This document shows, piece by piece, positions 31,694-52,950 of a stretch of DNA of 64,000 bases (position 1 is its first letter; each line of letters begins with the position of its first letter). Origin of the DNA: an uncultured Flavobacteriales bacterium. Its GTDB lineage: Bacteria > Bacteroidota > Bacteroidia > Flavobacteriales_D > Crocinitomicaceae. Made by a program: the position numbers and the translations under genes. Below the pieces are notes generated by a model. The model was not told the DNA's origin. It was given only the letters and a program-made list of their open reading frames with translations, and made no database searches. The stretch is taken from positions 1-64,000 of the forward strand of contig CAIZQH010000002.1 of the NCBI GenBank assembly GCA_903935095.1, written 5' to 3'.

Positions 31694-31713
31694 TGCTTTT
31701 TCTGTAATTTTAA

Positions 31714-33162: not shown

Positions 33163-33165
33163 TGG

Positions 33166-34191: not shown

Positions 34192-37100
34192 TGAAAACGA
34201 TATTCAGTACACTATTCTGCACGCTTAGCTTACTTTCCTTCACGCAAATAAACAAGGTCTTGGAAGCGAGTGACAAAGCACAAAAGATAGTAGGAAAACC
34301 AGCGGAATCGTTTAATCCATATGTTTACGTCATGCCAACAATTGGTACCGGCGGACACGGACACACCTTTCCTGGTGTAACGACACCATTTGGGATGATG
34401 CAATTGAGTCCAGACACCCGTTTCGATGGATGGGATGGTTGTGGTGGATACCATTATTCTGATTCCATTATCTATGGATTTAGTCATACGCATTTGAGTG
34501 GGACAGGTGTTCCAGATTACGGCGATTTACTCGTAGTTCCTCAATCTGGAAAAAAAGCAAAATTACAGGGGAAGTACATCGATCCAAAAAATGGCTACGG
34601 CTCTCGGTTTTCACATAATCAGGAAAAAGCACGCGCAGGATATTATGAAGTTTATTTGAAGGATGAAGACATCAAAGTACGCTTAACAAGTAGCGATCGT
34701 TCAGGGATACATGAATACACCTTCCAAAATAGAAAAGGCAAGAAATTTATTTTGTTGGACTTAGATTACCGAGACAAAGTGTTAGATGCCGGATTTGAAA
34801 TCCTAAATGACTCCACTATTTCCGGAAAACGTATCTCCGCAGCCTGGGCAAACGAGCAGCATTTCTATTTCCATTTGGAAACATCCATTCCATTCGTGTC
34901 AGCTAAACCGATAAAAATTGATGGAACACACAAATTATTATTGGAATTCCCTAAAAACACACAGGTTCTCTGTCTGAAAGTCGGAATGTCACACGTGGAT
35001 CAAAAAGGAGCAGCACATAATTTACAGTTGGAAATTCCACGATTCGATTTCATGCAGGTCTATTCTCGAAATGTGGAAAAATGGAACAATGAACTGAGTA
35101 AAATCAAAATCGAGTCAAAGAATTTTGAAGATGCCATCATTTTTTACACTGGCTTGTATCATTCCATGATTGCTCCAAACCTGATGAGTGATTTGGACGG
35201 ACGATACCGCGGTCGTGATCAGAAAATCCATCAACTCTTTAAGGATAATCAATACACCGTTTTCTCCTTATGGGACACCTATCGTGGAAATCACCCCTTA
35301 TTTACCTTGATTCAGCAAGAACGCACAACGCAATTCATCCGTACGTTTTTAAGGCAATTTGATGAAGGCGGCGACCTTCCTGTTTGGGAATTGGCAGCTT
35401 GTGAAACAGAATGCATGATTGGTTACCACAGCGTGAGCGTGATCTCTGATGCTTACATGAAAGGAATCGATGGCACAAGTAAAAAAGCTGGGATCTCATA
35501 TGACGCGAAAATAGCATTGAAGGACATGCATTACACAGCCAATATCAATGAATTTGGCAAACAATCCTATGCGCGCAAAGGATATCTCAGTTCAAGCGAT
35601 GAACCTGAGTCCGTTTCTAAAACCCTTGAATATGCCTACGACGATTTTTGTATTGCAGAAATGGCAGCAGCAATGGGAAATGACGAAATGTCGAAAACTT
35701 ACCGCAAACGTAGCTTTTCCTTCATCAACCTATTCGATCCAAACACCAAGTTCATGCGTCCTCGTCGCGGCGCACAATGGTATGGACCATTTGATCCTTC
35801 CGAAGTAAATTTTAATTATACAGAAGCAAATAGTTGGCAATATTCCTTGTATGCACCTCATGAAATCGAAGTATTGACAAACTTGCTCGGAGGACGCGAT
35901 TCCTTAGAAGCTTGGTTAGATCGCTTGTTTACAACTGAAATGAAATTGTCAGGACGCGAACAAGCGGACATCACCGGTTTAATTGGACAGTATGCCCATG
36001 GAAACGAACCTTCGCATCATATGGCTTATTTATACAATTTCACGAATGCGCCATACAAAACACAATTATACGTTGATCGCATTTTAAAGGAAATGTATCA
36101 CGCAAAGCCAGATGGGCTTTCCGGGAATGAAGACTGTGGACAAATGAGCGCCTGGTACGTACTCAGCTCCTTGGGACTTTATCCAATAGCTCCAGGAAAT
36201 ACCATGTATCAAATTGGACGACCACTATTTAGTAAAGCGAGCATCAAAGTGGACAATCAAACCCATTCAAAAATTGACATCGTTTGCAACAATCAAAGTG
36301 CAGAGAATTGCTACGTTGCTTCTGTCAAGTGGAATGGGAAAATCATCCCCGACTTCCAAATTGACCATAAATCATTGATGTTGGGCGGAACATTGGAATT
36401 CGAAATGACCAATGAGAAACCAGTTAAATCGAACTACCCACAAATGAATACAGTAAATATTCCCGCCGATGTAGTTCCTGCCCCTTTCATAAAAAATGAA
36501 CAACGCATTTTTGACCAAGAATTGTATTTAGAATTGGGTCATGTGGTTTTAAGTCCAACAGATACCTATGAATTAAGTTATCGCTTGAATAATGGCCCTT
36601 GGAACAGCTATGTGCAACCTATTAAAATCAAAGAGACAACAAACATTGACCTTCAATTATTGAGAAAGAATTCCGATGGAATTAGGTCAGAAAGTGCTCT
36701 TGTATCAAGTCAGTTCATTCGTAAAAATCCAAATGTTCGTTTAGCATTAGACACAAAGTACGCTAATCAGTACACAGCTTCTGGAGAAAATGCACTTATT
36801 GACGGCCTTTTTGGAGGCAATGAATTTAGAACAGGAGATTGGCAAGGATATTATGGGAAAGATGTTGTGGCAACTGTGACATTCAAAGAACCAGTTGCGA
36901 TTCATGAAATTGGTGCATCTTGTATACGCGATCAGAAATCTTGGATTTTCCTTCCAAAAGAAATTCGTTTCGAAATTTCTTTTGATGGAAGCACCTACCA
37001 AAACCCGCAAATCATTTCGATTCCCGAAGCAACGCCAACTGATAAGAATCCTTTCAACAATTCCTTTACAAAGGCAATTGAATCCGATAAAACACTAAAA

Positions 37101-37208
37101 ATCAAAAGCATCCGCTATACGATTGTCAATCCTGGTAATTGTCCTTCATGGCATTTAGGAGCTGGCAATCCGTCATGGGTGTTTTTAGATGAGCTAATTT
37201 TTGATTAA
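34191..37208 (+). CDS. GH92 family exo-alpha-mannosidase
   Basis: This 1005-residue exported glycosidase has signal peptide MKTIFSTLFCTLSLLSFTQ. GH92 hallmarks are GTGGHGHTFPGVTTPFGMMQLSPDTR and GFSHTHLSGTGVPDYGD in the N-terminal beta-sandwich, SLWDTYRGNHPLFTLI in the (alpha/alpha)6 domain, GNEPSHHMAYLYN and GNEDCGQMSAWYVLSSLGLYPIAPG. A C-terminal extension (about 760-1005) ends in an F5/8 type C-like module (FKEPVAIHEIGASCIRD...LPKEIRFEISFDG). GH92 enzymes are calcium-dependent mannosidases that trim mannans or glycoprotein glycans. No T9SS signal is seen, so it is probably periplasmic. Confidence 0.93.
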   Translation: MKTIFSTLFCTLSLLSFTQINKVLEASDKAQKIVGKPAESFNPYVYVMPTIGTGGHGHTFPGVTTPFGMMQLSPDTRFDGWDGCGGYHYSDSIIYGFSHTHLSGTGVPDYGDLLVVPQSGKKAKLQGKYIDPKNGYGSRFSHNQEKARAGYYEVYLKDEDIKVRLTSSDRSGIHEYTFQNRKGKKFILLDLDYRDKVLDAGFEILNDSTISGKRISAAWANEQHFYFHLETSIPFVSAKPIKIDGTHKLLLEFPKNTQVLCLKVGMSHVDQKGAAHNLQLEIPRFDFMQVYSRNVEKWNNELSKIKIESKNFEDAIIFYTGLYHSMIAPNLMSDLDGRYRGRDQKIHQLFKDNQYTVFSLWDTYRGNHPLFTLIQQERTTQFIRTFLRQFDEGGDLPVWELAACETECMIGYHSVSVISDAYMKGIDGTSKKAGISYDAKIALKDMHYTANINEFGKQSYARKGYLSSSDEPESVSKTLEYAYDDFCIAEMAAAMGNDEMSKTYRKRSFSFINLFDPNTKFMRPRRGAQWYGPFDPSEVNFNYTEANSWQYSLYAPHEIEVLTNLLGGRDSLEAWLDRLFTTEMKLSGREQADITGLIGQYAHGNEPSHHMAYLYNFTNAPYKTQLYVDRILKEMYHAKPDGLSGNEDCGQMSAWYVLSSLGLYPIAPGNTMYQIGRPLFSKASIKVDNQTHSKIDIVCNNQSAENCYVASVKWNGKIIPDFQIDHKSLMLGGTLEFEMTNEKPVKSNYPQMNTVNIPADVVPAPFIKNEQRIFDQELYLELGHVVLSPTDTYELSYRLNNGPWNSYVQPIKIKETTNIDLQLLRKNSDGIRSESALVSSQFIRKNPNVRLALDTKYANQYTASGENALIDGLFGGNEFRTGDWQGYYGKDVVATVTFKEPVAIHEIGASCIRDQKSWIFLPKEIRFEISFDGSTYQNPQIISIPEATPTDKNPFNNSFTKAIESDKTLKIKSIRYTIVNPGNCPSWHLGAGNPSWVFLDELIFD

Positions 37209-37217
37209 ATTTAATCT

Positions 37218-40082
37218 ATGAAATCAATTCTTACTAAAATTCGCGTGAATAAATTAATCCTACTTATTGTTATTCTATCCCTCGGAAAGAATCTTAATGC
37301 CCAATTAGATACATTATTCTGGTTTGTTGCACCAGAAGTTATTCAGAGTCATGGTGATCGACCTATCGTTTTTAGATTCGCCACTTTAAATGAACCGGCA
37401 GATGTTACGATTTCACAGCCAGCAAATGCCTTGTTTCCTGCGCAAACGCTGAATCTTGGTGCCAATTCTGCCCAAACAATTGATTTAACCACCTGGATTG
37501 ATATCGTAGAAAATAAACCGGCAGATCAAATTTTAAATTTCGGGTTCAAAATAGTTTCAAGTGCTCCAATAATGGCATACTATGAAGTCACCCCTACATG
37601 TAATTGTAATCCGGATATTTTCACGTTGAAAGGAAAAAACTCGTTGGGACTTAGCTTCGTCGTTCCATTTCAAAATTTCTTAAGTAATGCCTATGGGAAT
37701 GCCCGGTCTGGTTTTGATATTGTTGCGACAGAAGATAACACGACAGTCACCATTATACCGAAACAAGACATTGTAGGTCATCTAGCCTCAATTCCATATG
37801 TGATTACCTTGGATGCTGGAGAAACTTATTCTGCACAGGCATTTAGTACAGCCGCAAATCTGCACTTAAGTGGCTCAACAGTGATTTCAAATCGACCCAT
37901 AGCCATAACAATTAATGATGATTCTATGTCAGGTGGCCCATATGGTGGTTGCGCCGATTTAATGGGGGATCAAATCATCCCAAATAGTGTACTTGGAAAG
38001 GAACATATTGCAATAAAGGGTTACCTAAATGGTCCCGACAAAGTTTATATTGTTGCTTCCTTAAATAATACGCAAATCACCATAGACGGAATTGTTATAG
38101 GAGTAATAAACGCGACAGAAATGTACGTTCATACCCTATCAAACCCTACTGCTTATATTACCAGTGATCGACCCACACATGTGTTGCACACATCTGGATT
38201 CGGCTGTGAAGTTGGCGGAGCAATACTCCCCCCAATTGTTTGCACGGGTTCAAATACCGTTGCTTTTGTGCGTTCGACCAGTGAATTTTTCGCCTTAAAC
38301 ATTTTAGTTCCAAATGGAGGCGAAAACAGTTTCACATTGAATGGATCTACCACATCTATTACTGCAGCTGATTTTCAAATCGTACCAGGAACAAGTGGAC
38401 AATGGAAATATGCACAAATTAATGCCGGCGCTTTCATCCCGATTCAACAAGCATCGAGATTAGAAAATCCAAATGTAAAATTTCATCTTGGGGTTATTCA
38501 TGGTGGAGCAAGTAGCGGGTGTCGTTATGGTTATTTTAGCGATTTTGCATCTTTACAATACTCCATTCAATCAGAATCTTCTATATTATGTAGTGGAGAT
38601 ACACTTCAGTTATTCAACGATTCCTTACCCGGCGCAACCTATAACTGGGCGGGTCCAAACAACACTAATTTCATTGGTAATTCTATTAACATACCTAATG
38701 TACAATCTTCTAATTCAGGAAATTATGTGATTTCAGGTTATTTACCAGGAGCCTGCGAATTGTTATCGGACACAATTACAATAACCGTTAATGAAATACC
38801 AAATGCACCTGCTATTTTCAATAATGGACCTATTTGCAACGGAGATTCTTTGACTTTTTGGACAAACGAAAATAGTAATTATGAATACTTCTGGACAGAT
38901 GCATTTGGGAACACCTATTCTAACGATACGATTTGGACAACACAAACCCAAAATCCATTGTTCCCCATTAACTTAACCGTGAATATTGGTCAGTGTATTT
39001 CAGAACAATCTTCAAATACGGCCATCATTTACGATGATCCAATTATCAATTACATTGGAGATGCAGAAGTATGTGGAAATACGATTGACTTTGGTTCAAC
39101 TTATAGCCTAGATCCTTTAGATCAAATGGATCAAATCACTTGGTATGACAACGACAATAATAACACTATTTTAGGACTCGGAGTTAATCTAAACGATGTG
39201 ACAAGTCCAATAGAACCCTTTCACCAACACAACTACATTGTTGAAATAATGACTCAAACTGGCTGTATGCACAGGGACACTTTTCAAATTTCATTTTTCC
39301 CTTATCCAGAATTGACTTTAAATGCTAATCTTTTGTGTGATGGTGAGAGCGCTGTATTTTCTTCAAACTCGTCATGGATAAACACACCCCCACCTAACAC
39401 CAACTTGACCTACGTATTATCTTTTGGAGATGGACAAACTACGCCAATGCAAAATTCCGGACATATTTATGCGAATTCAGGCACCTATTTAACAAGTATA
39501 ACTGCCACGACAAGTGAAGGTTGTATTTCCAGTGAATCTCTTGAAATTGAAATTATTGCAATACCAATTATACAACCTATTATTGACACGTATTGTGGTC
39601 AAAATGCAGAATTTAACTTGAATTTTACATTGGGGAATTATCAAGTTGATTCCTTAATTTGGAATGTCCCTGCACTGTTTTCAACAAATAACATCAATTT
39701 TGATTATCAATTTTCAAATGCCGGAAATTATACTGGAAACATTACACTTTTTGGAACAAACAACTGCGATTTTTCCTTCCCATTTGGTTTTACGATTATC
39801 CCATCTATTACCATAGATAAATTAGTGATTCCTAATATTATTACCCCAAATAATGATCAAAAAAATGACTTTTGGGAAATTGATCAACTATTTAAAAATT
39901 GTACCGAATTCGATTTGTTAATCATGAATCGATGGGGAAATGTTGTATTTGAAACAAAGAATGGGGCAACCCCTTTCAGCGGCCTAGATAAATCAGGTGA
40001 AAAATTGACTCAAGGTGTATATTTTTATAAATTAAGTACGCCAGAGGATACCATGACTGGACACATATCGATTGTTTATTAA
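37218..40082 (+). CDS. T9SS type B cargo with IgGFc-binding-like and PKD domains
   Basis: This 954-residue protein has a signal-anchor-like N-terminus (LILLIVILSLGKNLNA). Residues about 90-430 resemble the IgGFc-binding domain (ARSGFDIVATEDNTTVTIIPKQ, SGSTVISNRPIAITINDDSM, GCADLMGDQIIPNSVLGKEHIAIKG). Ig-like repeats, a PKD domain (YVLSFGDGQTTPMQNSGHIYANSGTYLTSI) and a CHU_C type B sorting domain (IPNIITPNNDQKNDFWEI, MNRWGNVVFETKNG, LTQGVYFYKLSTPE) follow. It closes the GWxTD-GT2-GH92 run nine bases after the mannosidase. A cell-surface adhesion role is inferred. Confidence 0.87.
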   Translation: MKSILTKIRVNKLILLIVILSLGKNLNAQLDTLFWFVAPEVIQSHGDRPIVFRFATLNEPADVTISQPANALFPAQTLNLGANSAQTIDLTTWIDIVENKPADQILNFGFKIVSSAPIMAYYEVTPTCNCNPDIFTLKGKNSLGLSFVVPFQNFLSNAYGNARSGFDIVATEDNTTVTIIPKQDIVGHLASIPYVITLDAGETYSAQAFSTAANLHLSGSTVISNRPIAITINDDSMSGGPYGGCADLMGDQIIPNSVLGKEHIAIKGYLNGPDKVYIVASLNNTQITIDGIVIGVINATEMYVHTLSNPTAYITSDRPTHVLHTSGFGCEVGGAILPPIVCTGSNTVAFVRSTSEFFALNILVPNGGENSFTLNGSTTSITAADFQIVPGTSGQWKYAQINAGAFIPIQQASRLENPNVKFHLGVIHGGASSGCRYGYFSDFASLQYSIQSESSILCSGDTLQLFNDSLPGATYNWAGPNNTNFIGNSINIPNVQSSNSGNYVISGYLPGACELLSDTITITVNEIPNAPAIFNNGPICNGDSLTFWTNENSNYEYFWTDAFGNTYSNDTIWTTQTQNPLFPINLTVNIGQCISEQSSNTAIIYDDPIINYIGDAEVCGNTIDFGSTYSLDPLDQMDQITWYDNDNNNTILGLGVNLNDVTSPIEPFHQHNYIVEIMTQTGCMHRDTFQISFFPYPELTLNANLLCDGESAVFSSNSSWINTPPPNTNLTYVLSFGDGQTTPMQNSGHIYANSGTYLTSITATTSEGCISSESLEIEIIAIPIIQPIIDTYCGQNAEFNLNFTLGNYQVDSLIWNVPALFSTNNINFDYQFSNAGNYTGNITLFGTNNCDFSFPFGFTIIPSITIDKLVIPNIITPNNDQKNDFWEIDQLFKNCTEFDLLIMNRWGNVVFETKNGATPFSGLDKSGEKLTQGVYFYKLSTPEDTMTGHISIVY

Positions 40083-40536
40083 ATTCCTATTTTTCAGGGT
40101 TCGAAAGTTAAAGGTCAAGGTGATTTTCATCAATAAAACTTTGCCCAATCAAGGAGGAGAAAAAACACTGTACACTATTGACAAAGATTTTCTTGCACAT
40201 ATTTTATTGTTAAGGATTTTGGATTGATACCAGAAGAAGAAATGTGCAAAAATGAAATTTATAAAAAAGAGTCTACAAAGACTATTTACACATTTATGAT
40301 ATGAATAATCAATTTTTCGATGGAGCAATTTTAATTTGCTTAAAATTCGCTTTTTTAATTTTAGTTTTTTTTCGGGATTTATAAATACTCAGAATTTCAA
40401 AGTTGTTAACTTAGCTTAAAGTTTAACAACTTGAATAATTAAATATTATTCTGTATATTTTCCGTTACTAATTTATCTGGTTTCTATAAAACAATGAACA
40501 TCTTCAATAAAAACCCTTAAATGACGTTTTATTCTC
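40083..40536. other. 454-base non-coding AT-rich gap before the glycan cassette
   Basis: No ORF of 60 codons is present on either strand. The sequence is strongly AT-rich. It holds one imperfect inverted repeat (40400-40432, listed separately) and no exact TAnnTTTG element; TAATTTG near 40330 is one base short. It separates the type B cargo from the four-gene cassette and probably contains the cassette's promoter in a form not recognised here. Confidence 0.6.
40400..40432. repeat. Imperfect inverted repeat upstream of the cassette
   Basis: AAGTTGTTAACTT and AAGTTTAACAACTT are reverse complements apart from one bulged base, separated by about five bases. No T run follows on either strand, so it is more likely an operator or an RNA hairpin than an intrinsic terminator. 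It lies about 105 bases upstream of the AAC(3)-like start. Confidence 0.5.
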
Positions 40537-41439
40537 ATGATTAATTTCCGTTCTCTTTTAAAGGTTATTTTTCCATCATTCTTATTTCAATTATACAGAA
40601 TAAGGAAAAAGAAAAAAAGAAATGAAGAGTTGCTTGCTCAAAAGGATAAAGGTCATTATTTTACAAAAGATTTTTTGGTTCAAAATCTAAAATCAATTGG
40701 AATTCAAAAAGGAGATTCTCTTTTAGTTCATTCGAGTTTGAGTAAAATGGGCTATCTTGAAAATGGCCCAGATACAATAATTGATGCCTTATTAGAGGTG
40801 ATTGGAACAGAAGGAAACTTACTTATGCCCAGTTCACCTAATGCGCTTCTACAATTAAATTATATAAAAAGTAACACCTTGTTTGACGCTAAAAATTCGC
40901 CTTCAAAATTAGGTGCAATTACGGAAGTTTTCAGGAAAAGAAATGGCGTATTTCGAAGTTTAAATGCTACAGAACCAGTTTGTGCGCTAGGACCTGATGC
41001 TCATTATCTAACAAAAGGTCATTTTAACGAATTAACTCCGTACACAAAAAAATCTCCCTTTTATCGCTTGGTTGAGAAAAATGGAAAAATACTTTATATC
41101 GGAGTGACATTAGCCAATGCAGGAACAAGTTTACATTTGTTAGAAGATGCTGTAGATTTCAAATACCCCGTTTACTTCCCTGAAGTTTTTGATGTTAAAA
41201 TTAAAGACTCGACAGGAAATATTCACGAGGTTAAAACTAAAGTTCACAATCCAGAATATTCTAAAAAACGAAAGTGCGATGACTTATTACCACTATTTTT
41301 GGAAGAAGAGGTTTGTTCAAAAGTAAAAATTGGTAATGCAGATTCATATCTATTCGATTCAAAAAAAATGTTTGATTCAATGCTTAAAAATTACTTAGAA
41401 AAAGGAATCACAATGTACACTCCAAATTCGTCCAATTGA
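40537..41439 (+). CDS. AAC(3)-family N-acyltransferase, envelope-glycan type
   Basis: This 300-residue protein has the AAC(3) fold signature GDSLLVHSSLSKMGYLENGPDTIIDALLEVIGTEGNLLMPS, then RSLNATEPVCALGPDAHYLTKGH, SPFYRLVEKNGKILYIGV and a C-terminal helix region. Family enzymes transfer acetyl from acetyl-CoA to an amino group of an amino sugar. A basic N-terminal segment (RIRKKKKRNEEL) follows a hydrophobic start. Co-location with a deacetylase, a FemAB-like transferase and a reductase suggests acylation of a surface glycan amino sugar rather than drug resistance. Base composition is more AT-rich than neighbouring housekeeping genes. Confidence 0.82.
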   Translation: MINFRSLLKVIFPSFLFQLYRIRKKKKRNEELLAQKDKGHYFTKDFLVQNLKSIGIQKGDSLLVHSSLSKMGYLENGPDTIIDALLEVIGTEGNLLMPSSPNALLQLNYIKSNTLFDAKNSPSKLGAITEVFRKRNGVFRSLNATEPVCALGPDAHYLTKGHFNELTPYTKKSPFYRLVEKNGKILYIGVTLANAGTSLHLLEDAVDFKYPVYFPEVFDVKIKDSTGNIHEVKTKVHNPEYSKKRKCDDLLPLFLEEEVCSKVKIGNADSYLFDSKKMFDSMLKNYLEKGITMYTPNSSN

Positions 41440-42407
41440 AAATAGCAATTACTTGGGATTACGAACTTTTTTTCGGTGAACAAAGCGGTTCAGTACAAAA
41501 ATGCATGCTTGAACCTGGGGAAAGATTACTTGAAATTGCAAAAAAAAACGGTGCAAAATTTACCTTTTTTGTAGATGCAGGAATGCTTGTTTTAGGAGAA
41601 AAAGAACCTTCTTTCAAGCAAGAATTAACTGAAATACAAAATCAAATTTCAAAATGGGACCATCAAGGACACGAAACGGGCTTGCACATTCATCCGCATT
41701 GGGAAGATGCAATATGGAAAAATGGTTGGGAATTCTATTTAAAACGCTATAAATTAGCAGATTTTGATGATACGGAAATTGAACATATTTTCGATAACTA
41801 CTTAGGGGCATTGCAGCAATGGAGCAAAGATAAAATTGTTTCTTATCGTGCAGGTGGATGGTGTATTCAACCATTTGAAAAATTGAAATCCTCTTTTTTG
41901 AAGCATCAATTGAGAATTGAAAGCACCATTTTTCAAGGAGGAAAAAACACCACTTTACCTTATAATTATGATTTCACTAACGCACCGCAAAAGGAAAAGT
42001 GGTTCTTTGAAAATCACGAATGTGAAGAAGTTGAAAAAGGAATTTTTTTAGAAATTCCAATTGCTTCAAAAACGTATTCACCATTGTTCTTCTGGAAATT
42101 ATTTATCCTAGGTCGCCTTTTTCCTAAGAAACATAAGTCAATTGGAAATGGAAGCCCAGCTAAAGGTGGAGGTTCTAAAAAAGATTTTTTAACCAAATTC
42201 AATCATTTGTGTGTAAGCGCTGATGGTTACTTTGTAACTGAAATTGAGCGTGCAATTCAAGAGGCAGAAAACAAAGGGTGGAATTCAATTGTAATTATTG
42301 GACATCCAAAGGCTTGTACTTTATTTTCGTTAAATTATTTAGATAAATTAATCGCTAAACTTTCAAAAAAACACCAATTTATATGTCTAAAGGATTTGGC
42401 GAAATAA
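41436..42407 (+). CDS. NodB-like polysaccharide deacetylase-family protein
   Basis: This 323-residue protein matches a divergent NodB-fold group seen in polysaccharide loci. The first motif is ITWDYELFFGEQSGSV (in place of TFDDG), with FTFFVDAGMLV, the metal-binding HETGLHIHPHWEDA, SYRAGGWCIQPFEKL and a late NSIVIIGHPKACTL. These enzymes hydrolyse N-acetyl groups on sugars. The start is TTG 41436, overlapping the AAC(3) stop as TTGA; the family N-terminus begins directly there. No signal peptide, so a cytoplasmic nucleotide- or lipid-linked sugar substrate is likely. Overlaps the next gene by 25 bases. Confidence 0.8.
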   Translation: MKIAITWDYELFFGEQSGSVQKCMLEPGERLLEIAKKNGAKFTFFVDAGMLVLGEKEPSFKQELTEIQNQISKWDHQGHETGLHIHPHWEDAIWKNGWEFYLKRYKLADFDDTEIEHIFDNYLGALQQWSKDKIVSYRAGGWCIQPFEKLKSSFLKHQLRIESTIFQGGKNTTLPYNYDFTNAPQKEKWFFENHECEEVEKGIFLEIPIASKTYSPLFFWKLFILGRLFPKKHKSIGNGSPAKGGGSKKDFLTKFNHLCVSADGYFVTEIERAIQEAENKGWNSIVIIGHPKACTLFSLNYLDKLIAKLSKKHQFICLKDLAK

Positions 42408-43312
42408 AACTAATTAGTCGGGAAGAAATTCAAATAGATAGGTGGGAAGAAGTCATCGCTGATTCTGATAATTCAATTTTTCTATCATTTTGGTATTTAG
42501 ATGCAGTAATGCAAAATTGGAAGGCTTATGTTTTAAATGATTACGAATTAGTTTTACCTATTTTACCAGCACAAAAATTGGGTTTTAATTACATTTTGCA
42601 TCCTCTTTTTTTAAGAGCTTTTTCCGTTGAAGGTAATACTAATGAAAAGAAATTAGAATTTCTAACTCAAATCCTTACGAATTACCATTTTTTTGAATTG
42701 AATTTTGTTCTTAAAACAGCTATTCCAAATGAAATACAAAACAATAAGTCGGTTTATCAATTCTTAGAATTTGAGAAAGAGTATTTACAGACTTTTAATA
42801 AATATTCTGAAAATACTAGACGAAAATTAAAGGTTTTTCAAAAATCAACTGCTCAGTTTATAGAAATTTCTGATGTTAATTTGTTGTTAGATCTGTTTAA
42901 GAAAGAAAAGGGCAATCAATTTGCTCATTTGACAACTGAATCCTACCGTTGTTTGAAAAACTTGATGACGAATGCCCTTGAAACTAATTGTGGTATCATC
43001 AAAGCCATTTCGTTTGAAAATGAAATAGTTGCAATCGGATTTTTTATAAAAAAGAGTAATCAACTCCTTTATTTAAAAGGAATCGTGATTTCATCAGGGA
43101 AGAAAATTGGAGCGATGCAAGCACTTTTTGATAAGGTAATTCAAGAAAATCACGAATCATGCATTGGGTTAGATTTTGGAGGTTCTTCCGATGAAGGTTT
43201 GGCTAGTTTCAACAAAAAGTTCGGCGCTTGTGATCAAAATTACCTAATTTTGAAACAGAATAAATTGCCCTGGCCTATAAATAATGTGGTCAAAAGAAAA
43301 CTTGGAATATGA
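42383..43312 (+). CDS. FemAB/GNAT-like transferase
   Basis: This 309-residue protein fits the double-GNAT FemAB-like group (GNAT_6): SIFLSFWYLDAVMQNWKAYVL at the N-terminus, the substrate-facing KYSENTRRKLKVFQKS, a second GNAT unit with GIIKAISFENEIVAIGFFIKKSNQLLYLKGIV, and GLDFGGSSDEGLASFNKKFGACDQNYLILK at the end. Relatives transfer aminoacyl or acyl groups, often onto cell-wall or exopolysaccharide precursors. The 25-base overlap upstream and four-base overlap downstream place it firmly in the cassette. The donor and acceptor cannot be named. Confidence 0.75.
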   Translation: MSKGFGEIKLISREEIQIDRWEEVIADSDNSIFLSFWYLDAVMQNWKAYVLNDYELVLPILPAQKLGFNYILHPLFLRAFSVEGNTNEKKLEFLTQILTNYHFFELNFVLKTAIPNEIQNNKSVYQFLEFEKEYLQTFNKYSENTRRKLKVFQKSTAQFIEISDVNLLLDLFKKEKGNQFAHLTTESYRCLKNLMTNALETNCGIIKAISFENEIVAIGFFIKKSNQLLYLKGIVISSGKKIGAMQALFDKVIQENHESCIGLDFGGSSDEGLASFNKKFGACDQNYLILKQNKLPWPINNVVKRKLGI

Positions 43313-44016
43313 GGAAAATTGTGTTGACTGGCGCTTCAGGAGGTTTAGGTTTAGTAATTGCTCAAAATTTATTGAATGAAGGCTATTTTGTTCATCTAAT
43401 TGGAAATAAGAACACTTCCAAACTGCAATTAATTCATTCTAAATTTCTTGCAACTTCTAAAGTGTATTCAGTTGATTTTTCAAAAACGAGCGATTTTACA
43501 GAATTAGTAAATGAAATTGGTCAAATAGATGGATTGGTCCATACTTTGGGAGTTTCAAGTGCTGATATGAGTTGGAAAATTACTTCCGAAGAATGGAATC
43601 GAGTGATGCACTTAAATTTAACTGTTCCTTTTCAATTGACACAAGCCTTTACTCCTCAGTTACGAGCGAATAAGTTCGGAAGAATTATTTTCTTTTCATC
43701 TATCGTTGCTCAAAAAGGATTTATTGGCACGTCTGCTTATGCAACGAGTAAAAGTGCATTAATTGGATTGACTCGAACGCTTGCTGTTGAATTAATTAAC
43801 AGCGGAATAACTGTTAATTGTATTGCTCCAGGCTATATGGATAAGGGAATGATTGAAGAAGTAACAGATGAATACTTGAAAGAAATACTTGGGTTAATCC
43901 CTTCAAAAAAGCTAGGAGATTCAACAAATATAGCTCATACTGTTTCCTACTTGTTAAATGAAAAAGCGAGTTACATCAATGGTCAAGTGCTAAATGTTAA
44001 TGGTGGATTGAATTAA
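43309..44016 (+). CDS. FabG-like short-chain dehydrogenase/reductase
   Basis: This 235-residue classical SDR has the cofactor motif VLTGASGGLGLVIAQ (TGxxxGxG), HTLGVSS in place of NNAG, catalytic Ser in FFSSIVAQKG and the YATSK active-site motif (YxxxK). ALIGLTRTLAVELINSGITVNCIAPGYMDKGM follows, as in 3-oxoacyl-ACP reductases. Cofactor is probably NADPH. As the last gene of the cassette it may reduce a 3-oxoacyl thioester or a sugar-linked keto group; both are inferred. It overlaps the FemAB-like gene by four bases. Confidence 0.83.
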   Translation: MRKIVLTGASGGLGLVIAQNLLNEGYFVHLIGNKNTSKLQLIHSKFLATSKVYSVDFSKTSDFTELVNEIGQIDGLVHTLGVSSADMSWKITSEEWNRVMHLNLTVPFQLTQAFTPQLRANKFGRIIFFSSIVAQKGFIGTSAYATSKSALIGLTRTLAVELINSGITVNCIAPGYMDKGMIEEVTDEYLKEILGLIPSKKLGDSTNIAHTVSYLLNEKASYINGQVLNVNGGLN

Positions 44017-44144
44017 GTGTTTTTACTATTACACTTGCAAGCTACACACGCTTCCTTTATATGAAATCTTTTAGGAGGACATCCCAAACCCATGTCAAAG
44101 AAAAGAAATCTAATTGCGCATCGGAAGCAACCATTTGATCCCAT
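44013..44144 (-). CDS. Possible cysteine-rich micro-ORF opposite the cassette end
   Basis: A 43-residue minus-strand ORF (ATG at 44144, TAA at 44013-44015) reads with five cysteines and a GCPPKRFHIKEACVACKC stretch. A TGA lies three codons upstream. It overlaps the SDR stop by four bases and sits in sequence visibly less AT-rich than its surroundings. It could be a remnant or a chance ORF; no family is recognised. Confidence 0.2.
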   Translation of the reverse strand: MGSNGCFRCAIRFLFFDMGLGCPPKRFHIKEACVACKCNSKNT

Positions 44145-44314
44145 TTTCGTTTGTCAGTATGATGCGAGGAAAGAAGTTTCACTGTTGAATTTTAAACGAA
44201 ATTAACGGAATAAATTCAGTTTTAGTATCTTCGAGATGGAAAGAATAAATATATTACTCTTTTTTCATTAACTTCGTTTCAGAGAATCATAATTAATCAA
44301 TTAAAACAGTACCC
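44017..44314. other. 298-base intergenic region
   Basis: The region after the cassette contains the doubtful minus-strand micro-ORF, a weak AAGTGT/ACACTT hairpin (44015-44036) without a T run, and an imperfect -7-like TATCTTCG near 44228. It ends in the leader of the Spy-like gene. No clear terminator for the cassette was found. Confidence 0.5.
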
Positions 44315-44650
44315 ATGAAAGCAATTAAAATTTTATGTTTTTCATTTTTCTTAGGACTTACAGCAGTGGCTCAACAAGCACAAACTCCTGAACAAAATGC
44401 TAAAACGATGACTCAAAGTCTAACAAAAATGTTGAATTTGACTCCTGCTCAACAAGATGAAGTTTATACGATTCATTTCGGAATAGCTAAAAAAAATGAG
44501 GGGATTTTAACGTCTGACTATACAGATGAGCAAAAGCAAGCGATTATTAAGTCGAACGAAGTGGCAAGAATCGCCATGTTAAAACACATGTTATCTGCAG
44601 AACAATTCGCTAAATTGCAAAAAGAAGAAGCAGAGCAATCAAAACAATAA
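44315..44650 (+). CDS. Small secreted Spy/CpxP-like protein
   Basis: This 111-residue protein has signal peptide MKAIKILCFSFFLGLTAVAQ and a helical, Gln/Lys-rich mature part. Two LTxxQ-like motifs (LNLTPAQQDEVYTI and HMLSAEQFAKLQKEE) resemble the paired LTxxQ motifs of Spy/CpxP periplasmic chaperones, though the protein is shorter. A periplasmic chaperone or stress role is a guess from this pattern. It is a single gene ending at a bidirectional terminator. Confidence 0.7.
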   Translation: MKAIKILCFSFFLGLTAVAQQAQTPEQNAKTMTQSLTKMLNLTPAQQDEVYTIHFGIAKKNEGILTSDYTDEQKQAIIKSNEVARIAMLKHMLSAEQFAKLQKEEAEQSKQ

Positions 44651-44662
44651 GTAATTTCATTC

Positions 44663-44699
44663 AAAAAAAAATCCCTGAGCTATTCAGGGATTTTTTTTT
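44663..44699. terminator. Bidirectional terminator between the Spy-like and CotH genes
   Basis: ATCCCTGA / TCAGGGAT form an eight-base stem with loop gctat, flanked by nine A and nine T, so it serves both converging genes. Confidence 0.92.
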
Positions 44700-44710
44700 G
44701 CTATTACTTT

Positions 44711-46969
44711 TTACTTCATCAATTTCAGTGTTTTTATTCCATGCTCATTTTGAATGCTCACGATGTACATTCCGTTCGACCAATTCGCTGTAGAAATAAT
44801 AGTTTCAGGATTTGAAAATTCATCGTTCAACAGAACTTTTCCATTCACATCGATGATGGATACATGAGCTGCCATTTGATTATCCAACTGAATCGTAACT
44901 TGCTCGTTAAACGGATTTGGAAAGATACGAACCTCAAAATCCGCCTGTTCTACAGAAGCAAAGCAATTATTGCTTGATGAATAAGTGGGTATCACATAGG
45001 CAAAAGTCGCTCCCCCATCTGGACATCGAGCGTAGGCAACATCTGTTATCTGTACACCAAAGCCTACTTGATCATGGAAGACAGCACCGTTACTCAATAT
45101 GACTAATTCACCAGAAGCATTCAATTTGAATGAGGCATGTAAGCCTGATTGAAACAGATCATTATCCGCCCAAACAATTAAATATCCATTGGCAGGAATC
45201 GTTGTGGTTACTGGAAACGACCATTTCATCAAATTCAAAGCATCATCCGTTAAATACATCCCAGAAAGATCAATTGGATTCGAAGTGGTATTGTACAATT
45301 CAATCCAATCATCGTATTGACCATTTTGATCCAATGCTGAAGCGCCATTCGAAGCAACAATTTCATTGATTAATACGGACCCAACGGTTGGGAAAGGAAC
45401 GGAAACCGTTAATGAATGGTATTCATGCTCTGCTCGTTGTGGACTAAATAATCCAGCACTCGCATTCTCCGTATAGATGTAATATTCGAAAACAACGCCA
45501 TTCACGAGGGCATCAACTCCGTAAACATGATCTCCTGCTGCACCATCATTATGTGATCCATCGTCGAACATCGCTACACGATTGAACTTCAATTGGTGAT
45601 TCGTCCGGTATCCCAAAAAGACAGAAGTTTCATTGGCGCAAGTGGCATTGATTGTTATCGTTTGATTATACACAGGACTAGCAACAGATGAAGAAAAACT
45701 AGAAATCGTTGGTGCAACCAAAACATAATTGGCATTTGAATTGAAATAAGAAACACGTGCACTCATGAGGGCTTGAATCCCAGGAATACTAGAGCCACCA
45801 CCTGGACCACCGGATCCAGTTACTGCGGTTGTTAAACTATTTTGAAACTGTGTGTACGTGTAAAATTTATAGGGGTCAGAATTCACCGTTGCATCAATCG
45901 TCGTGCGAAGTTGATTGGCAACAGTCAAATAATAGTCATTTGCAAACATCTCCTGAACCATCGTACGAACATGCGCCATATACATGCGTTTATACATTGG
46001 ATTCCCCAAGATTTTCACAATAAGCGGATGAATCGTCGAAGTACTATTCGACATTGGATCTAATGTGGTCGTACTTGAACTGGAGCCTGTTCCACCAGGA
46101 AAGCCCGCAAAACTCATGTTTAAGTCCCAAACGGTTGGGACAAAGCGAAAGTTGTTATCCCAAGTCAAGTAATAATTTTGACGAAATGCACCACTGTAAG
46201 AATCTAAATTAACAAGGACATTATTGAAGGCTAACATCCAAATTGCCCGATCAATATCCAATTTTGATTCAATATTCGTAAAGTTATTATTCAGGATGTT
46301 GATTAAATCGACAAGGCGATTCCATCCATAGGAAGTTCTTAATTCATAACCATTTGCATAAACGCTACTATCCATACTGATGTATGATAAATCCGGACCT
46401 ATTGTACTTCCCGGTCCAGCCCCTCCAACTGGATTGCATTTAAAGTATGTATCCCCACTTTGATAATAATGATTCGCATTAAACGTTTTATTGATACTCT
46501 CCGCACTGGAATACAGGCCGCGATAGACACCGTTAACATACACATTGGCAAAATTTCCTTTCGGACAATCCATGTATTGCTCGAGAATCGCGTAGGAAAG
46601 AACCTCACGAATCATGGACGGATCCTTGTAACCATTTTGCAATTTAACATCTGTATATCCCTGGTAATCTTGATTTCCTTTAATGTGATCGAGTTCGATG
46701 TGCAAAGGATTCTTTTGATTTGTTGGACTGTAGGAACTGTTACCCTTGTACTTTACACCACAACTATCAAATGAAACTCCATTAATTCGAACAGAATCAG
46801 CGATAATATATGCTTCGGAAGCAACTGCAGCGTCAAGTTGTGCATCCCAATTCGAAAAACTAAAAAACACCTCAATAGTTTGAATTGTGGCACGATCATA
46901 GAAATTTTGAACCTGTGAAAAGTTGACAGAGCATGGAAAAAGGGAGAGAAATAAAAGGAGGTTTTTCAT
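44711..46969 (-). CDS. CotH kinase-like, lamin-tail T9SS type A cargo
   Basis: This 752-residue secreted protein has signal peptide MKNLLLFLSLFPCSVNFS. Residues about 25-400 match the CotH family (VKYKGNSSYSPTNQKNPLHIELD, YVNGVYRGLYSSAESI, FNNVLVNLDSYSG, FVPTVWDLNMSFAGF), which in spore-formers are atypical kinases. A lamin-tail domain follows (VLINEIVASNGASALDQNGQYDDWIELYN...YLIVWADND). The end is a type A Por sorting domain (VRIFPNPFNEQVTIQL...IIDVNGKVLLN...WSNGMYIVSI). It is exported by the type IX system and anchored or released. Whether it phosphorylates anything is unknown. Confidence 0.9.
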   Translation of the reverse strand: MKNLLLFLSLFPCSVNFSQVQNFYDRATIQTIEVFFSFSNWDAQLDAAVASEAYIIADSVRINGVSFDSCGVKYKGNSSYSPTNQKNPLHIELDHIKGNQDYQGYTDVKLQNGYKDPSMIREVLSYAILEQYMDCPKGNFANVYVNGVYRGLYSSAESINKTFNANHYYQSGDTYFKCNPVGGAGPGSTIGPDLSYISMDSSVYANGYELRTSYGWNRLVDLINILNNNFTNIESKLDIDRAIWMLAFNNVLVNLDSYSGAFRQNYYLTWDNNFRFVPTVWDLNMSFAGFPGGTGSSSSTTTLDPMSNSTSTIHPLIVKILGNPMYKRMYMAHVRTMVQEMFANDYYLTVANQLRTTIDATVNSDPYKFYTYTQFQNSLTTAVTGSGGPGGGSSIPGIQALMSARVSYFNSNANYVLVAPTISSFSSSVASPVYNQTITINATCANETSVFLGYRTNHQLKFNRVAMFDDGSHNDGAAGDHVYGVDALVNGVVFEYYIYTENASAGLFSPQRAEHEYHSLTVSVPFPTVGSVLINEIVASNGASALDQNGQYDDWIELYNTTSNPIDLSGMYLTDDALNLMKWSFPVTTTIPANGYLIVWADNDLFQSGLHASFKLNASGELVILSNGAVFHDQVGFGVQITDVAYARCPDGGATFAYVIPTYSSSNNCFASVEQADFEVRIFPNPFNEQVTIQLDNQMAAHVSIIDVNGKVLLNDEFSNPETIISTANWSNGMYIVSIQNEHGIKTLKLMK

Positions 46970-47155
46970 AAATAACGTTTGGGTTTATTGCTTTGATGAC
47001 ACTTCATTGTATTAATTGCGCACATTTTAAGCAATATTAAGTTAAAGTTAAGCATTTTTTCATGACCGGTCTTGAATGGAAGCTTAGGCATAGTTATTGA
47101 CAAGGCCTTGGTTATTTCTTCAACAAATAATTCATCTGTCTAAAAGGGATATACT

Positions 47156-47163
47156 TAAATTTG
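47156..47163 (+). promoter_or_regulatory. -7 promoter element of the NagZ-like gene
   Basis: TAAATTTG matches TAnnTTTG exactly. It contains the ORF-track TTG start (47161), so transcription would begin after it; ATG 47182 is then the first start on the message. No convincing -33 TTG was found. Confidence 0.55.
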
Positions 47164-47181
47164 AAACTGACAATTTATACT

Positions 47182-48327
47182 ATGAAAAAAATCATCACCC
47201 CATTATTTCTAGCCGGACTCCTATTTCAAGGATGTGCACAATCAAATGAATCCACAAAACAAGCGAAGGTTATTCAACCAAAAACGGAAATCAGTTTTGA
47301 ATTGGCTGATTTTCTGAAGGATAATCCTGCATTAGACAAAGAAGTTGAGCGTGTTTTTAAACAAATGGATGACACTGCCATTGTATCACAATTAATCATG
47401 CCGGCAGTTGGACGTTTAGGTCAAACAAAAGCAACCATTGATCAACACATCAAAGACCGTGTGATCGGCGGTGTTTTGATGTTAAATGGCACCAAAGAAG
47501 AATTCAGTTCATGGATAAAAGATTTTGAGTCCAACAATGCGAAATTCGGCAATCTCCCCTTCTTATATAGCGCAGATGCAGAACCAAGTTTGGTCAACCG
47601 AAAAATCGCAGGATCTACATTGGTTAAAAAAGCAAACGAACTTAAAAATGTGGATGAAGTGATTACATGTGCAAAAACCATTTCTGCCGATTTGAATTCA
47701 ATTGGAATTAATTACAACTTCTCTCCAGTTGTGGATATGTCACCGAATACAACGGTTGGATTCAGAAGTTTTGGTGCTGTTCCAGCGAATATCATTCCGT
47801 GGTCCGATGCATTTATTCAGGAAACACAACGCAACAACATTATCGCCACGGCGAAACATTTTCCTGGACACGGACTTGTTACGGGTGATACCCACAAAGC
47901 ATTGCAAGTGATTGATGGAGAGATGAAAGAAATCTGCAACTATCCCACCTTGATTGCAAATGGTGTTTTAAGCATCATGGTAGCGCACATTGCTGTTCAA
48001 AACAATGCGAAATACGACACAAAAGGATTACCGTCCACTTGTTCAGAGAAAATTGTCACTGAATTACTAAAAGACAGCCTTGGATTCAAAGGGTTAATTG
48101 TTACAGACGCGATGAACATGGGAGGCGTTGTCAATGTGCCTCAAGCGGCCTATAAGGCAATAAATGCAGGATGTGACATCGTACTAATGCCGTTAGATGC
48201 AAAGAAAGCTCACCAAGAAATTTTGACAGCTTACCGCACGAACAAAGAATTTAAAAAGAAAGTAGATGAAGCTGCGAAAAAAGTAATTCGCATGAAAATC
48301 GCATTGGGCTTATTAAAGGTGAATTAA
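47182..48327 (+). CDS. nagZ: GH3 beta-N-acetylhexosaminidase lipoprotein (NagZ-like)
   Basis: From ATG 47182 the protein has 381 residues with a lipoprotein signal (ITPLFLAGLLFQGC). GH3 hallmarks are GVLMLNGTKEEF, YSADAEPS, FSPVVDMSPN, AKHFPGHGLVTGDTHKAL (KHFPGHG plus the NagZ-type D-x-H dyad) and the nucleophile loop LIVTDAMNMGGV. Such enzymes cleave GlcNAc from muropeptides or chitooligosaccharides. A lipid anchor implies action in the periplasm or at the outer membrane, unlike cytoplasmic NagZ of Proteobacteria. The stop overlaps the rimM stop by four bases. Confidence 0.88.
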   Translation: MKKIITPLFLAGLLFQGCAQSNESTKQAKVIQPKTEISFELADFLKDNPALDKEVERVFKQMDDTAIVSQLIMPAVGRLGQTKATIDQHIKDRVIGGVLMLNGTKEEFSSWIKDFESNNAKFGNLPFLYSADAEPSLVNRKIAGSTLVKKANELKNVDEVITCAKTISADLNSIGINYNFSPVVDMSPNTTVGFRSFGAVPANIIPWSDAFIQETQRNNIIATAKHFPGHGLVTGDTHKALQVIDGEMKEICNYPTLIANGVLSIMVAHIAVQNNAKYDTKGLPSTCSEKIVTELLKDSLGFKGLIVTDAMNMGGVVNVPQAAYKAINAGCDIVLMPLDAKKAHQEILTAYRTNKEFKKKVDEAAKKVIRMKIALGLLKVN

Positions 48328-48851
48328 CCTAAATACAAATCGATTAATCCTTCAGGAGCTTTTACATAAAGCTCCTTTTTTTTTCGCTGAACTTTCTGTA
48401 CCAGTCCATCAAAAATTGGAAGCAATACCTCTACTCCATTTTTGTTTAGTTGCAATAATGGATTTGCCGCCATGTCAATCACATTTTCCACAATCCCAAC
48501 ATCACCATGAACTTCATCAATTACTGTGTAACCAATGATTTCATGATCGTAAAATGATGTTTGATCTAATTCTTGTAAAAATGCTTCTGGAAGGTAAACG
48601 GGCTTTTTCAAAATGCGTTGTGCATCTTGTTCACTGTCTACTCCTTGAAACTTCACCGCAACGAAGCCTTTGGTTTTGATTTTGATGTTCTGAACGAAAA
48701 ACGGAACAAGTCCACCATCTATTTCAACGAAAACAGCATCCAATGTTGCGTAATCTCCTGGATTAGAAACGTCCAAAAACAACGAAACTTCACCTTTAAA
48801 TCCGTGAAGTTTCGCTATTATTCCTAAATAAAAACAATCTTTTTTTTGCAT
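48324..48851 (-). CDS. rimM: Ribosome maturation factor RimM
   Basis: This 175-residue protein assists 30S subunit assembly, binding S19 near the head. The N-terminal beta-barrel domain starts YLGIIAKLHGFKGEVSLFLDV, and the PRC-like C-terminal domain has DHEIIGYTVID, GDVGIVENVIDMAANPLLQL and VLLPIFDGLVQKVQRKKKELYVKAPEGLIDL. The family motif LP(I/V) with a terminal PEGL(I/L)DLY is intact. Five bases separate it from rpsP. Its last codons, on the opposite strand, form the terminator hairpin for nagZ. Confidence 0.95.
   Translation of the reverse strand: MQKKDCFYLGIIAKLHGFKGEVSLFLDVSNPGDYATLDAVFVEIDGGLVPFFVQNIKIKTKGFVAVKFQGVDSEQDAQRILKKPVYLPEAFLQELDQTSFYDHEIIGYTVIDEVHGDVGIVENVIDMAANPLLQLNKNGVEVLLPIFDGLVQKVQRKKKELYVKAPEGLIDLYLG
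48354..48384 (+). terminator. Terminator of the NagZ-like gene inside rimM coding sequence
   Basis: On the plus strand AGGAGCTTT and AAAGCTCCT form a nine-base perfect stem with loop tacat, followed by nine T. It begins 27 bases after the nagZ stop. The same bases encode the KKKELYVKAPEG segment of RimM on the other strand. Confidence 0.8.
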
Positions 48852-48856
48852 AAAGC

Positions 48857-49603
48857 TTATTCAGCCGCAGCTTCCTCTGATGCTTCTTCTGCTGCAGGAG
48901 CTTCTTCTGCTACTGGAGCTTCTTCAACTACTGGAGCTTCTTCTGCTACAACTTCTTCTGTTGCTGGAGCTTCTTCCGCAACTGGTGCTTCTTCTTCAAT
49001 AACTTCTTCAGCTACTGCTTCCGTTGTTTCTTCAACAACTTCTTCCGCTACTGCTTCGGTTGTTTCTTCAACAACTTCTTCCGCTACTGCTTCGGTTGTT
49101 TCTTCAGCAACTTCTTCCGCTACTTCTTCAACTTCCTCTACAACTGGAGCATTTTTCGCAGCAACTTGTGCAGCTTTCGCTAATTTTGCTGCTTCTTCAG
49201 CTTGTTGACGCGCAACTTTTTCACTTGCTGCATTTTTCGCCAATCCTTCTACTTTATTTTGAACTTTAGAATCTTTATTCGCTAACCATTGCGCAAATTT
49301 CTCTTCTACTTGCTCCAATGTTAACGCACCTTTTTTAACTCCGTTTAAAAGGTGGTTTTTGTACAAAACTCCTTTGTAAGATAAAATTGCACGAGCCGTA
49401 TCAGACATTTCCGCTCCTGTTTGAACCCAAGTCAAAGTTGCCTCAAAATTGATGTCAATTACCGCTGGATTTGCCGTTGGATTGTACGTTCCTAATTTTT
49501 CAATGAATTTACCATCTCTTTTTGCACGACTATCTGCAGCAACCAAATGAAAAAATGGTTTACCTTTTTTACCGTGTCTTTGTAATCTGATTCTTGTTGC
49601 CAT
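48857..49603 (-). CDS. rpsP: 30S ribosomal protein S16 with long acidic C-terminal tail
   Basis: The S16 domain occupies residues 1-80 ([42 protein letters not shown]). From about 85 a helical region ([20 protein letters not shown]) and Ala/Lys-rich segment follow, then from about 150 a tail dominated by Glu, Ala and Val with three [12 protein letters not shown] repeats. Total is 248 residues, against about 80-90 for classical S16. ATG 49603 matches the universal start; the ORF-track start 32 codons upstream is a read-through of the leader. rpsP-rimM order is the usual one. The tail's role is unknown. Confidence 0.95.
49017..49124. repeat. Three 36-base tandem repeats in the S16 tail
   Basis: Three consecutive 36-base units beginning gcttc(c/g)gttgtttcttca differ at only a few positions, and encode the repeated 12-residue acidic unit. 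A partial fourth unit precedes them. Such repeats change copy number by slippage in whole codon multiples. Confidence 0.85.
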
Positions 49604-49656
49604 AATTTTTACAGTTTGAGGTACGAAACCTACGTTTATAAATGAATTTGAAGGTG

Positions 49657-49664
49657 CAAAGATA
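49657..49664 (-). promoter_or_regulatory. -7 promoter element of rpsP-rimM
   Basis: On the minus strand TATCTTTG matches TAnnTTTG exactly, with a weak TTTC at the -33 position 20 bases upstream. It lies 53 bases before the corrected rpsP ATG. The 11-base string containing it recurs at thrS. Confidence 0.6.
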
Positions 49665-49704
49665 CAAAGGTTTTTTTGAATTTCGAAACTTCTAAACAAA
49701 GAAT

Positions 49705-51096
49705 CTATTTCCCTTTGGCTTTTATCACAATAATCAAAGTATAAAACATGATTTTAAGATCCAAGGCAAGACTTCTATTTTTCAAATAAATCAAGTCGAA
49801 TTTCATACGTTGTAGCATTTGCTCCACATTCTCAGCATATCCAAATTTAACCTGACCCCAAGAGGTGATACCAGGTCGTACTTTTGTTAAATGAATATAT
49901 TGCGGTTCCACTTGAACAATTTGATCAATGTAAAATTGTCTTTCGGGACGTGGTCCAACAAGCGACATTTGACCAAGTAAAACATTCACGAATTGCGGAA
50001 ACTCATCCAACCTCGTTTTACGCATAAAGCGACCAATCGGTGTGATCCGTGGATCTCCCTCAGAGGATAATTGCGGACCTTGTTCTTCCGAGTTGATGTA
50101 CATCGTCCGAAATTTTATTATTTTAAAAATCTTTCCATTGATACCAACGCGTTCTTGTAAAAAGAAGATTGGTCCGGGTGAAGAAAGTTTAACCGCCAAG
50201 GCTGAAAATAAATAAAACGGCAGCAAGCACCCAACTGCCAATAAAGAAATAACAATATCCATTAATCTCTTTACTTGTTGCTGTCCAAATGGCATCGCAT
50301 CCGGTATGATTTCAATTAATAAGGCCCCATAAATATTGGTCATTTCAACTGAACCTGAAAGAATGGCGTACATATCTGGCAGCAACTTCATGCGAATTCG
50401 ACCATTATCTATGCGTGAAATCATGTCCTTCAATCGATTATGATCAGAGCTTTCCACCGCTAAAATAACTTCTTCCACTTCATGTTGACTCATGATTTCC
50501 TCTAAATTATTGGCATGACCGAGGTATGGAACAGCCCCATCGAGCAAGGTATCCTTGCCATTTACATTCACATAACCAATGAAATAATTTGTATTTTGTT
50601 GTTGTTGAATGAGCTCATTATAAATTTCAACAGCCTTTTCATTTCCACCAATGATTATTGTTTTAAAACCATGTCCATTTGATCGAATAAATCGAATTAA
50701 CAAGCTGTTAAAAATCATTCTTGGTATAAGCACAATGAAAAAATGGAGTCCGAATAAAAATAAAATGGATCGGTAAAAATTTTGATAGCTCTTCACTTCA
50801 TCATCGATCAATAAGGTGAAGAATAAAATAATGGTTCCTAAAATTGAAGCTACCAATGTTAAATTGACCATTTTTAAACGGAACATTCTACGTATGTCGT
50901 GATAGGTACCTTGAATATAATATATGGAAAACCAAAAGACAGGAACGAGCGTGAGTCCTAAATAAAACTTAGCATCCGGAATAAATACTTGTTCTTCAAT
51001 TTGGGTTTTGCGGAAATAAAAAAATACTCCCCAAGCTAATGCCGCGAAAAGGTAATCGATGATGACCAAGCAAGAAGCCCAAAAACGATCTTTCAT
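49705..51096 (-). CDS. Polyprenyl-phosphate sugar-1-phosphate transferase (WcaJ/WbaP type)
   Basis: This 463-residue membrane enzyme starts glycan repeat units by moving a sugar phosphate onto undecaprenyl phosphate. Four N-terminal membrane helices precede a CoA-binding-like domain ([18 protein letters not shown]). A fifth hydrophobic segment ([30 protein letters not shown]) leads into the catalytic domain: [56 protein letters not shown] and [11 protein letters not shown]. All are bacterial sugar transferase hallmarks. No Wzx/Wzy genes lie beside it. It lies one base after the lipoprotein gene. Confidence 0.92.
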
Positions 51097-51097
51097 C

Positions 51098-51961: not shown

Positions 51962-51985
51962 TTCGTTAACGTATAATTCTCGTTT

Positions 51986-52930: not shown

Positions 52931-52950
52931 AAATCAAACGAATAGATTAA

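Follow-up and report, generated by a model that had tools for sequence, protein, structure and literature searches.

In a 64,000-nucleotide stretch of DNA from an uncultured Flavobacteriales bacterium of the Crocinitomicaceae (contig CAIZQH010000002.1, positions 1 to 64,000; hereafter the window, whose numbering is used for all positions), four overlapping genes, termed A, B, C and D in their order, form an AT-rich cassette. As judged from alignments, codon use and a gene remnant, this cassette was recently imported from a relative of the same genus and replaced, at the same locus, a resident solo femAB gene, the single-gene form of C. The encoded proteins would act as a cytoplasmic module that remodels the N-substituent of an amino sugar, a reading that, recent transfer and replacement included, we hold with a probability of roughly 0.6.

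All four genes lie on the forward strand, and neighbours overlap by 4, 25 and 4 bases. Gene A (40537-41439) encodes a putative N-acyltransferase of the AAC(3) fold (Antibiotic_NAT) that carries an additional basic helical N-terminal extension, and gene B (41436-42407), which begins with a TTG start codon, a carbohydrate-esterase-4-like polysaccharide deacetylase in which no signal peptide was seen. Gene C (42383-43312) specifies a FemAB/VimA-type double-GNAT protein, a putative N-aminoacyltransferase, and gene D (43309-44016) a FabG-like short-chain dehydrogenase/reductase (SDR). The G+C content of the cassette is 32.2%, as compared with 38.2% in the remainder of the window, and the third-position G+C of its genes (0.23-0.25 versus a mean of 0.32) is among the lowest of the 47 window genes. 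The flanking gaps, 454 and 298 bp in length, exceed all other non-coding stretches of the window, since the competing 330-bp gap at 53351-53680 contains an rpmI-like gene of 65 codons. Thus, the overlaps, the AT-richness, the position of the cassette and the four protein families, with B as a divergent polysaccharide deacetylase and C as an Acetyltransf_6/FemAB-like protein, correspond to what the original prediction, made from the sequence alone, had described. In line with it, none of the four genes encodes a glycosyltransferase or flippase. Likewise, no hidden acyl carrier protein (ACP) or ligase was found among the short open reading frames of the intergenic gaps.

Replacement of a solo femAB gene by the cassette

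Comparison by blastn with four relatives carrying the solo femAB gene (loci L056, L060, L065 and L068) revealed that positions 28001-37208 and 44087-53600 are colinear with them at 76-81% identity, whereas the segment between the two flanks, 37209-44086, has no counterpart in these relatives. Within this segment only positions 40493-44077 closely resemble cassette-bearing relatives, being 88% identical to the ABCD genes of locus L031, the surroundings of which have a G+C content of 32.6%, near that of the cassette. Correspondingly, the codon use of all four cassette genes is nearer to this donor type than to the window, which holds for just one of the 43 other genes. The donor may therefore be sought in a same-genus relative with approximately 32.6% G+C. 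Upstream of the cassette, two scraps at 40137-40243 and 40357-40424 (together 40137-40424) resemble the sequence preceding the cassette in L031, L033 and L034, with 80-82% identity in blastn to positions 6949-7055 of L031 and 7642-7709 of L033, and are taken as remnants of donor flanking DNA. Downstream, on the reverse strand, positions 44080-44182 align at the DNA and protein level with the first ~34 codons of the intact solo gene of the same four relatives, and represent its fossil, cut short by the incoming cassette.

Gene C is nearly universal in the genus (48 of 50 good genomes) and occurs either in the solo or in the cassette form, never with both intact; the two states are thus mutually exclusive within the genus. 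In the tree of C, the cassette copies of the genus form a single clade (support 99/94), separate from the solo copies. Genomes of this genus therefore switch between a solo and a four-gene version of the same locus. The base composition and codon use of the cassette, which the original prediction had proposed to compare with the flanks, indeed deviate from these and fit the donor. While the AT-richness itself was correctly recognized, its source, a recent transfer within the genus, and the femAB fossil in the downstream stretch regarded as non-coding had been missed.

It could be argued that the AT-richness merely follows from amino-acid composition and that the locus was inherited vertically without recent transfer: the four proteins seem to contain many Lys, Phe and Asn residues, and the module overall is old and conserved. 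However, third-position G+C and synonymous codons fit the donor genome, the flanks and the cassette point to different relatives at 76-81% and 88% identity, respectively, and a truncated resident gene is present. This explanation is already contradicted, and we give it next to no credence.

In one genome of the genus, locus L182 (G494:C59, positions 418-2303) pairs B with a C of the solo type but lacks a downstream D, a third arrangement besides solo and ABCD. In addition, a weak femAB fragment with two stop codons lies just upstream of an intact cassette (G034:C137:7-174) and may be the remnant of a further displaced gene. Loci L031, L032 and L033 stem from cassette-bearing metagenome-assembled genomes titled Chitinophaga pinensis; contigs of two of them (G003, G034) fall in the genus of the window, and the titles are probably wrong. 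As to the surroundings of the cassette, the forward-strand gene at 37218-40082 encodes an IgGFc-binding-like protein with a sorting domain of the type IX secretion system (T9SS), type B (PF17517, TIGR04131). It is missing between the GH92 and femAB genes of the four solo relatives, yet shows resident-like codon use, and possibly represents a separate insertion event. On the other side, the gene at 44711-46969, whose CotH-kinase/lamin-tail product bears a type A sorting domain of the T9SS, adjoins the cassette and is kept in three of the four solo relatives. A bS16-like ribosomal protein gene with a long Glu/Ala-rich low-complexity tail (48857-49699) is a strong outlier in codon usage.

Conservation and genomic context of the module

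The genomes compared are mostly metagenome-assembled and some contigs are short (6 kb in the case of L062); calls of absence are soft where a genome is incomplete. In the fetched loci the order A-B-C-D is kept wherever the contig permits. Within the genus more than 25 genomes share it, as do G065 and G070 (loci L057 and L062) from two other families of the order. Among 86 genomes of the genus, A and B occur together in 30, A alone in one, B alone in one and neither in 54, an association for which the Fisher value is optimistic owing to the kinship among the genomes. Other genera of the family carry A on its own, usually adjoining genes for a WG-repeat protein and a TonB-like protein. All 20 A-bearing genomes tested from other genera nevertheless possess B and C as well: 17 have B, C and D adjacent, two have only the B-C pair, and in one the genes lie separately. 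ABCD is thus an old, conserved module, and the four genes co-occur outside this strain, on which their interpretation as one unit had been made to depend.

Outside the order, the phylum-wide search yielded strong relatives of B in only 4 of 396 genomes, none of them with A, C or D, and C in 42 others, solely of the solo type; cassette-grade A was found in none of 297 genomes except the present one. The four relatives of B outside the order (L088-L091, in G323, G453, G446 and G372) are located in exopolysaccharide-type loci, and three of the four adjoin sulfotransferase-like genes. A literature search returned no description of the ABCD cassette.

Across the order we observed a recurrent locus, incomplete in some genomes, with the succession radC, wecB, a DUF7033 deacetylase gene, then either nothing, C, BCD or ABCD, followed by upp, a membrane protein gene and a HAD gene. 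In G065, ABCD directly follows the DUF7033 deacetylase gene, a candidate member of the VimE family, as does solo C in other families; the DUF7033 proteins adjoining solo C or ABCD score 159-178 bits with the VimE model NF053580, for which the cut-off is 440. In the genome studied here the VimE-type DUF7033 gene is located on another contig. In one outside family solo C adjoins genes for a GT4 glycosyltransferase and a flippase-like protein, and in another it lies beside genes for a sugar-1-phosphate transferase and a uridine diphosphate N-acetylglucosamine (UDP-GlcNAc) 3-dehydrogenase-like protein. Homologues of the latter two are present in the window 5.7-9 kb from the cassette, both on the reverse strand: a WcaJ/WbaP-type polyprenyl-phosphate sugar-1-phosphate transferase (49705-51096; 377 bits with TIGR03025), with homologues beside solo femAB in L167, L168 and L174, and a GFO/IDH oxidoreductase resembling the UDP-GlcNAc 3-dehydrogenase WbpB (51986-52930; 164.6 bits with NF040723, cut-off 450), the homologues of which adjoin solo femAB in L167, L168, L173, L174 and L176 of other families. 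Moreover, eight genomes of other genera have a UDP-GlcNAc 4,6-dehydratase-like gene in the same locus as BCD or BC, in seven of them directly downstream.

Protein features and proposed function

For each protein, 15 orthologues were compared. A matches PF02522 Antibiotic_NAT (E 5.4e-49; 167.3 bits versus a gathering score of 25), and its predicted model, with a predicted local distance difference test score (pLDDT) of 92.7, adopts the AAC(3) fold (fold match E 1.6e-25), with AAC(3) enzymes, FrbF and YokD as nearest folds. Residues H65, H200, E203 and D204 are invariant, and upon inspection H65 and H200 appear to be the counterparts of the histidines mutated in the meta-AAC0038 entries (H29A, H168A). 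With 123.3 bits A remains below the curated AAC(3) equivalog cut-off of 270, and considered as a membrane anchor its N-terminal helix has a hydrophobic moment of 0.4-0.7 across members at a mean hydrophobicity near or below zero. A is probably a coenzyme A (CoA)-dependent N-acyltransferase acting on an amino sugar. The window member of B scores 15.3 bits with PF01522, below the gathering score of 23.1, and 7 of the 15 orthologues match this family at E<=0.01; D8, H84, H86, H88, R138 and H290 are invariant, and the conserved Asp and His residues provide candidate metal ligands, the carbohydrate esterase family 4 motifs being assigned by inspection. D is a FabG-like SDR (PF13561, E 1e-45) with an invariant catalytic tetrad (N103, S131, Y144, K148), which scores 187.5 bits versus the FabG equivalog cut-off of 297.75 and has FabG and acetoacetyl-CoA reductases as nearest solved relatives.

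C matches Acetyltransf_6 in 15 of 15 orthologues. The structure prediction that had been suggested for this FemAB-like protein gave an AlphaFold2 model with a pLDDT of 90.6 and the double-GNAT fold characteristic of FemABX/Acetyltransf_6 proteins. Its nearest folds are the aminoacyl-tRNA-dependent peptide synthases Sbb17/Sba18 (template modelling score, TM, 0.63-0.68), the structures of which were solved with the amino-sugar antibiotic streptothrisamine, followed by FemX (TM 0.63-0.70); the sequence alignment with FemX stops before the region of its catalytic lysine K305. TIGR03019 (pepcterm_femAB) is matched by 2 of 15 members, with a best E of 4e-8, far below its cut-off. As the candidate active-site residues are invariant across the orthologues, all four genes look functional.

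The closest experimentally studied precedent for the cassette is the Wbp/Vim pathway, known from Porphyromonas gingivalis and Tannerella forsythia. In Porphyromonas, VimE removes an N-acetyl group, the FemAB-type protein VimA, reported to match TIGR03019, then adds serine or glycine to the sugar amine, and the resulting sugar links T9SS cargo to lipopolysaccharide (PMC7468200). The same exchange of N-acetyl for an amino acid by a deacetylase and a FemAB-like enzyme is what we propose for ABCD, candidate VimE-family genes adjoin solo C as well as the cassette of G065, and UDP-GlcNAc 3-dehydrogenase-like and sugar-1-phosphate transferase genes are located near the cassette. In contrast, B belongs to another deacetylase family than VimE, and A and D are without counterpart in Wbp/Vim. 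WbpE and WbpD were not located here, where the WbpB-like protein at 51986-52930 was the only candidate seen and no search was aimed at a complete WbpA-B-E-D set. A FemAB-like protein (TIGR03019) together with a polysaccharide deacetylase is likewise found in PEP-CTERM/exosortase exopolysaccharide loci; however, no exosortase or PEP-CTERM genes were seen beside the cassette. The FemABX-type natural-product enzymes BD-12 Orf11 and Sbb17/Sba18 use aminoacyl-tRNA to attach an amino acid to an amino group on a molecule that contains a sugar, Orf11, which also acts on streptothrisamine, being glycyl-tRNA-dependent and FemABX-like according to a 2026 review (PMC12945691). Their folds are closest to that of C, but sequence identity is 12-13%, and they serve antibiotic pathways rather than a surface glycan. 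Similarly, A shares the fold and two active-site-type histidines with AAC(3) aminoglycoside acetyltransferases and FrbF, but scores below the resistance-enzyme cut-offs, carries the helical extension and stands in a glycan-type context.

We therefore favour B and C as a deacetylation-aminoacylation pair, given the Wbp/Vim precedent and the TIGR03019 match of C-like proteins. B would strip the N-acetyl group from an amino sugar, and C would load the freed amine with an amino acid that probably comes from aminoacyl-tRNA. A may add an acyl group from acyl-CoA to an amine, either the second amine of the same sugar or in competition with C, and D may serve as an accessory reductase, whereas synthesis and polymerisation of the sugar would be provided by genes elsewhere, with a surface glycan as the destination. 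While the conservation of the module, the exclusivity of its two states, the transfer and replacement and the invariance of the candidate catalytic residues are shown, we infer the chemistry, the donor, the order of steps and the target glycan. Several observations weigh against this scheme. What A and D contribute is conjecture, and two of the 20 genomes of other genera (G629, G651) lack D next to B-C although A, B and C are present; D is thus the dispensable member of the module. B shows no detectable homology to VimE-type DUF7033 deacetylases (hhalign probability 0.4%, E 0.16), and C fits no VimA-specific model, with TIGR03019 matched only below its cut-off. Since a VimE-type gene persists elsewhere in this genome, B is not simply a VimE substitute. 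As the T9SS sortase is universal in the relatives with or without C, its distribution lends no support to a T9SS destination. Both ideas had been considered as candidates: the substitution was rejected, as 88 of 100 relatives have a VimE-type gene, whether they carry the cassette or the solo form, and as B lacks homology to this family; and the presence of C does not discriminate with respect to T9SS, as PorU (in this genome at G000:C3:260832-264173) is present in 100 of 100 relatives.

The original prediction had instead envisaged, as a possibility, a 3-hydroxyacyl amide. On this view B would deacetylate, a 3-hydroxyacyl thioester would come from D, and its acyl group would be moved to the amine by A or C. 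The relatives and invariant tetrad of D agree with this proposal, as does the fold of A, known to bind acyl-CoA. However, the B-C loci without D in G629 and G651 argue against it, the cassette is not linked to an acyl-CoA ligase, an ACP or any other gene for acyl supply, and the fold neighbours of C are aminoacyl-tRNA-dependent enzymes, which indicates an amino acid as the group transferred. Deacetylation followed by reacylation stands as the best reading of the chemistry, while the analysis favours an aminoacyl group over a 3-hydroxyacyl one; we regard the latter as unlikely. Among proteins of solved structure FemX alone is credibly related to C by sequence, and it is one of the top folds, which could also point to peptidoglycan, with B deacetylating and C adding a cross-bridge-type amino acid to a cell-wall precursor. 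This we consider a poor prospect, as in many families C stands next to surface-glycan genes (VimE family, WecB, GT4, flippase-like, sugar-1-phosphate transferase), cell-wall genes were not noted beside C in the neighbourhoods viewed, and A and D have no role there. A horizontally acquired cassette for antibiotic resistance or for biosynthesis of a streptothricin-like small molecule would agree with the fold of A, the resemblance of C to streptothricin-type enzymes and the recent transfer, but we judge it very improbable: A falls far short of the AAC(3) equivalog cut-off (123 versus 270) and is widespread in the family apart from the cassette, no other biosynthetic or resistance genes are present, and the cassette displaces a near-universal solo femAB gene.

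Possible implications for T9SS linking sugars

In the literature consulted, descriptions of T9SS linking sugars were found for only three species, and a study of Prevotella intermedia from 2025 reported an N-alanyl deoxyhexose without a known pathway and proposed that there may be several routes (PMC11969387). A concrete candidate for such a route is ABCD, which is conserved in the whole family and in some genera lies beside a UDP-GlcNAc 4,6-dehydratase-like gene. It is conceivable, though doubtful, that the cassette provides another way, not described before, of making an N-aminoacyl linking sugar by which T9SS proteins are anchored to the surface, and that the genus, by switching between one- and four-gene alleles, changes its anchor or surface glycan. 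New here is the recognition, from composition and alignments, that the AT-richness of the cassette is the mark of a recent within-genus transfer. As the fossil-marked replacement represents a natural allele swap, the function of the module is testable by comparing solo and cassette strains.

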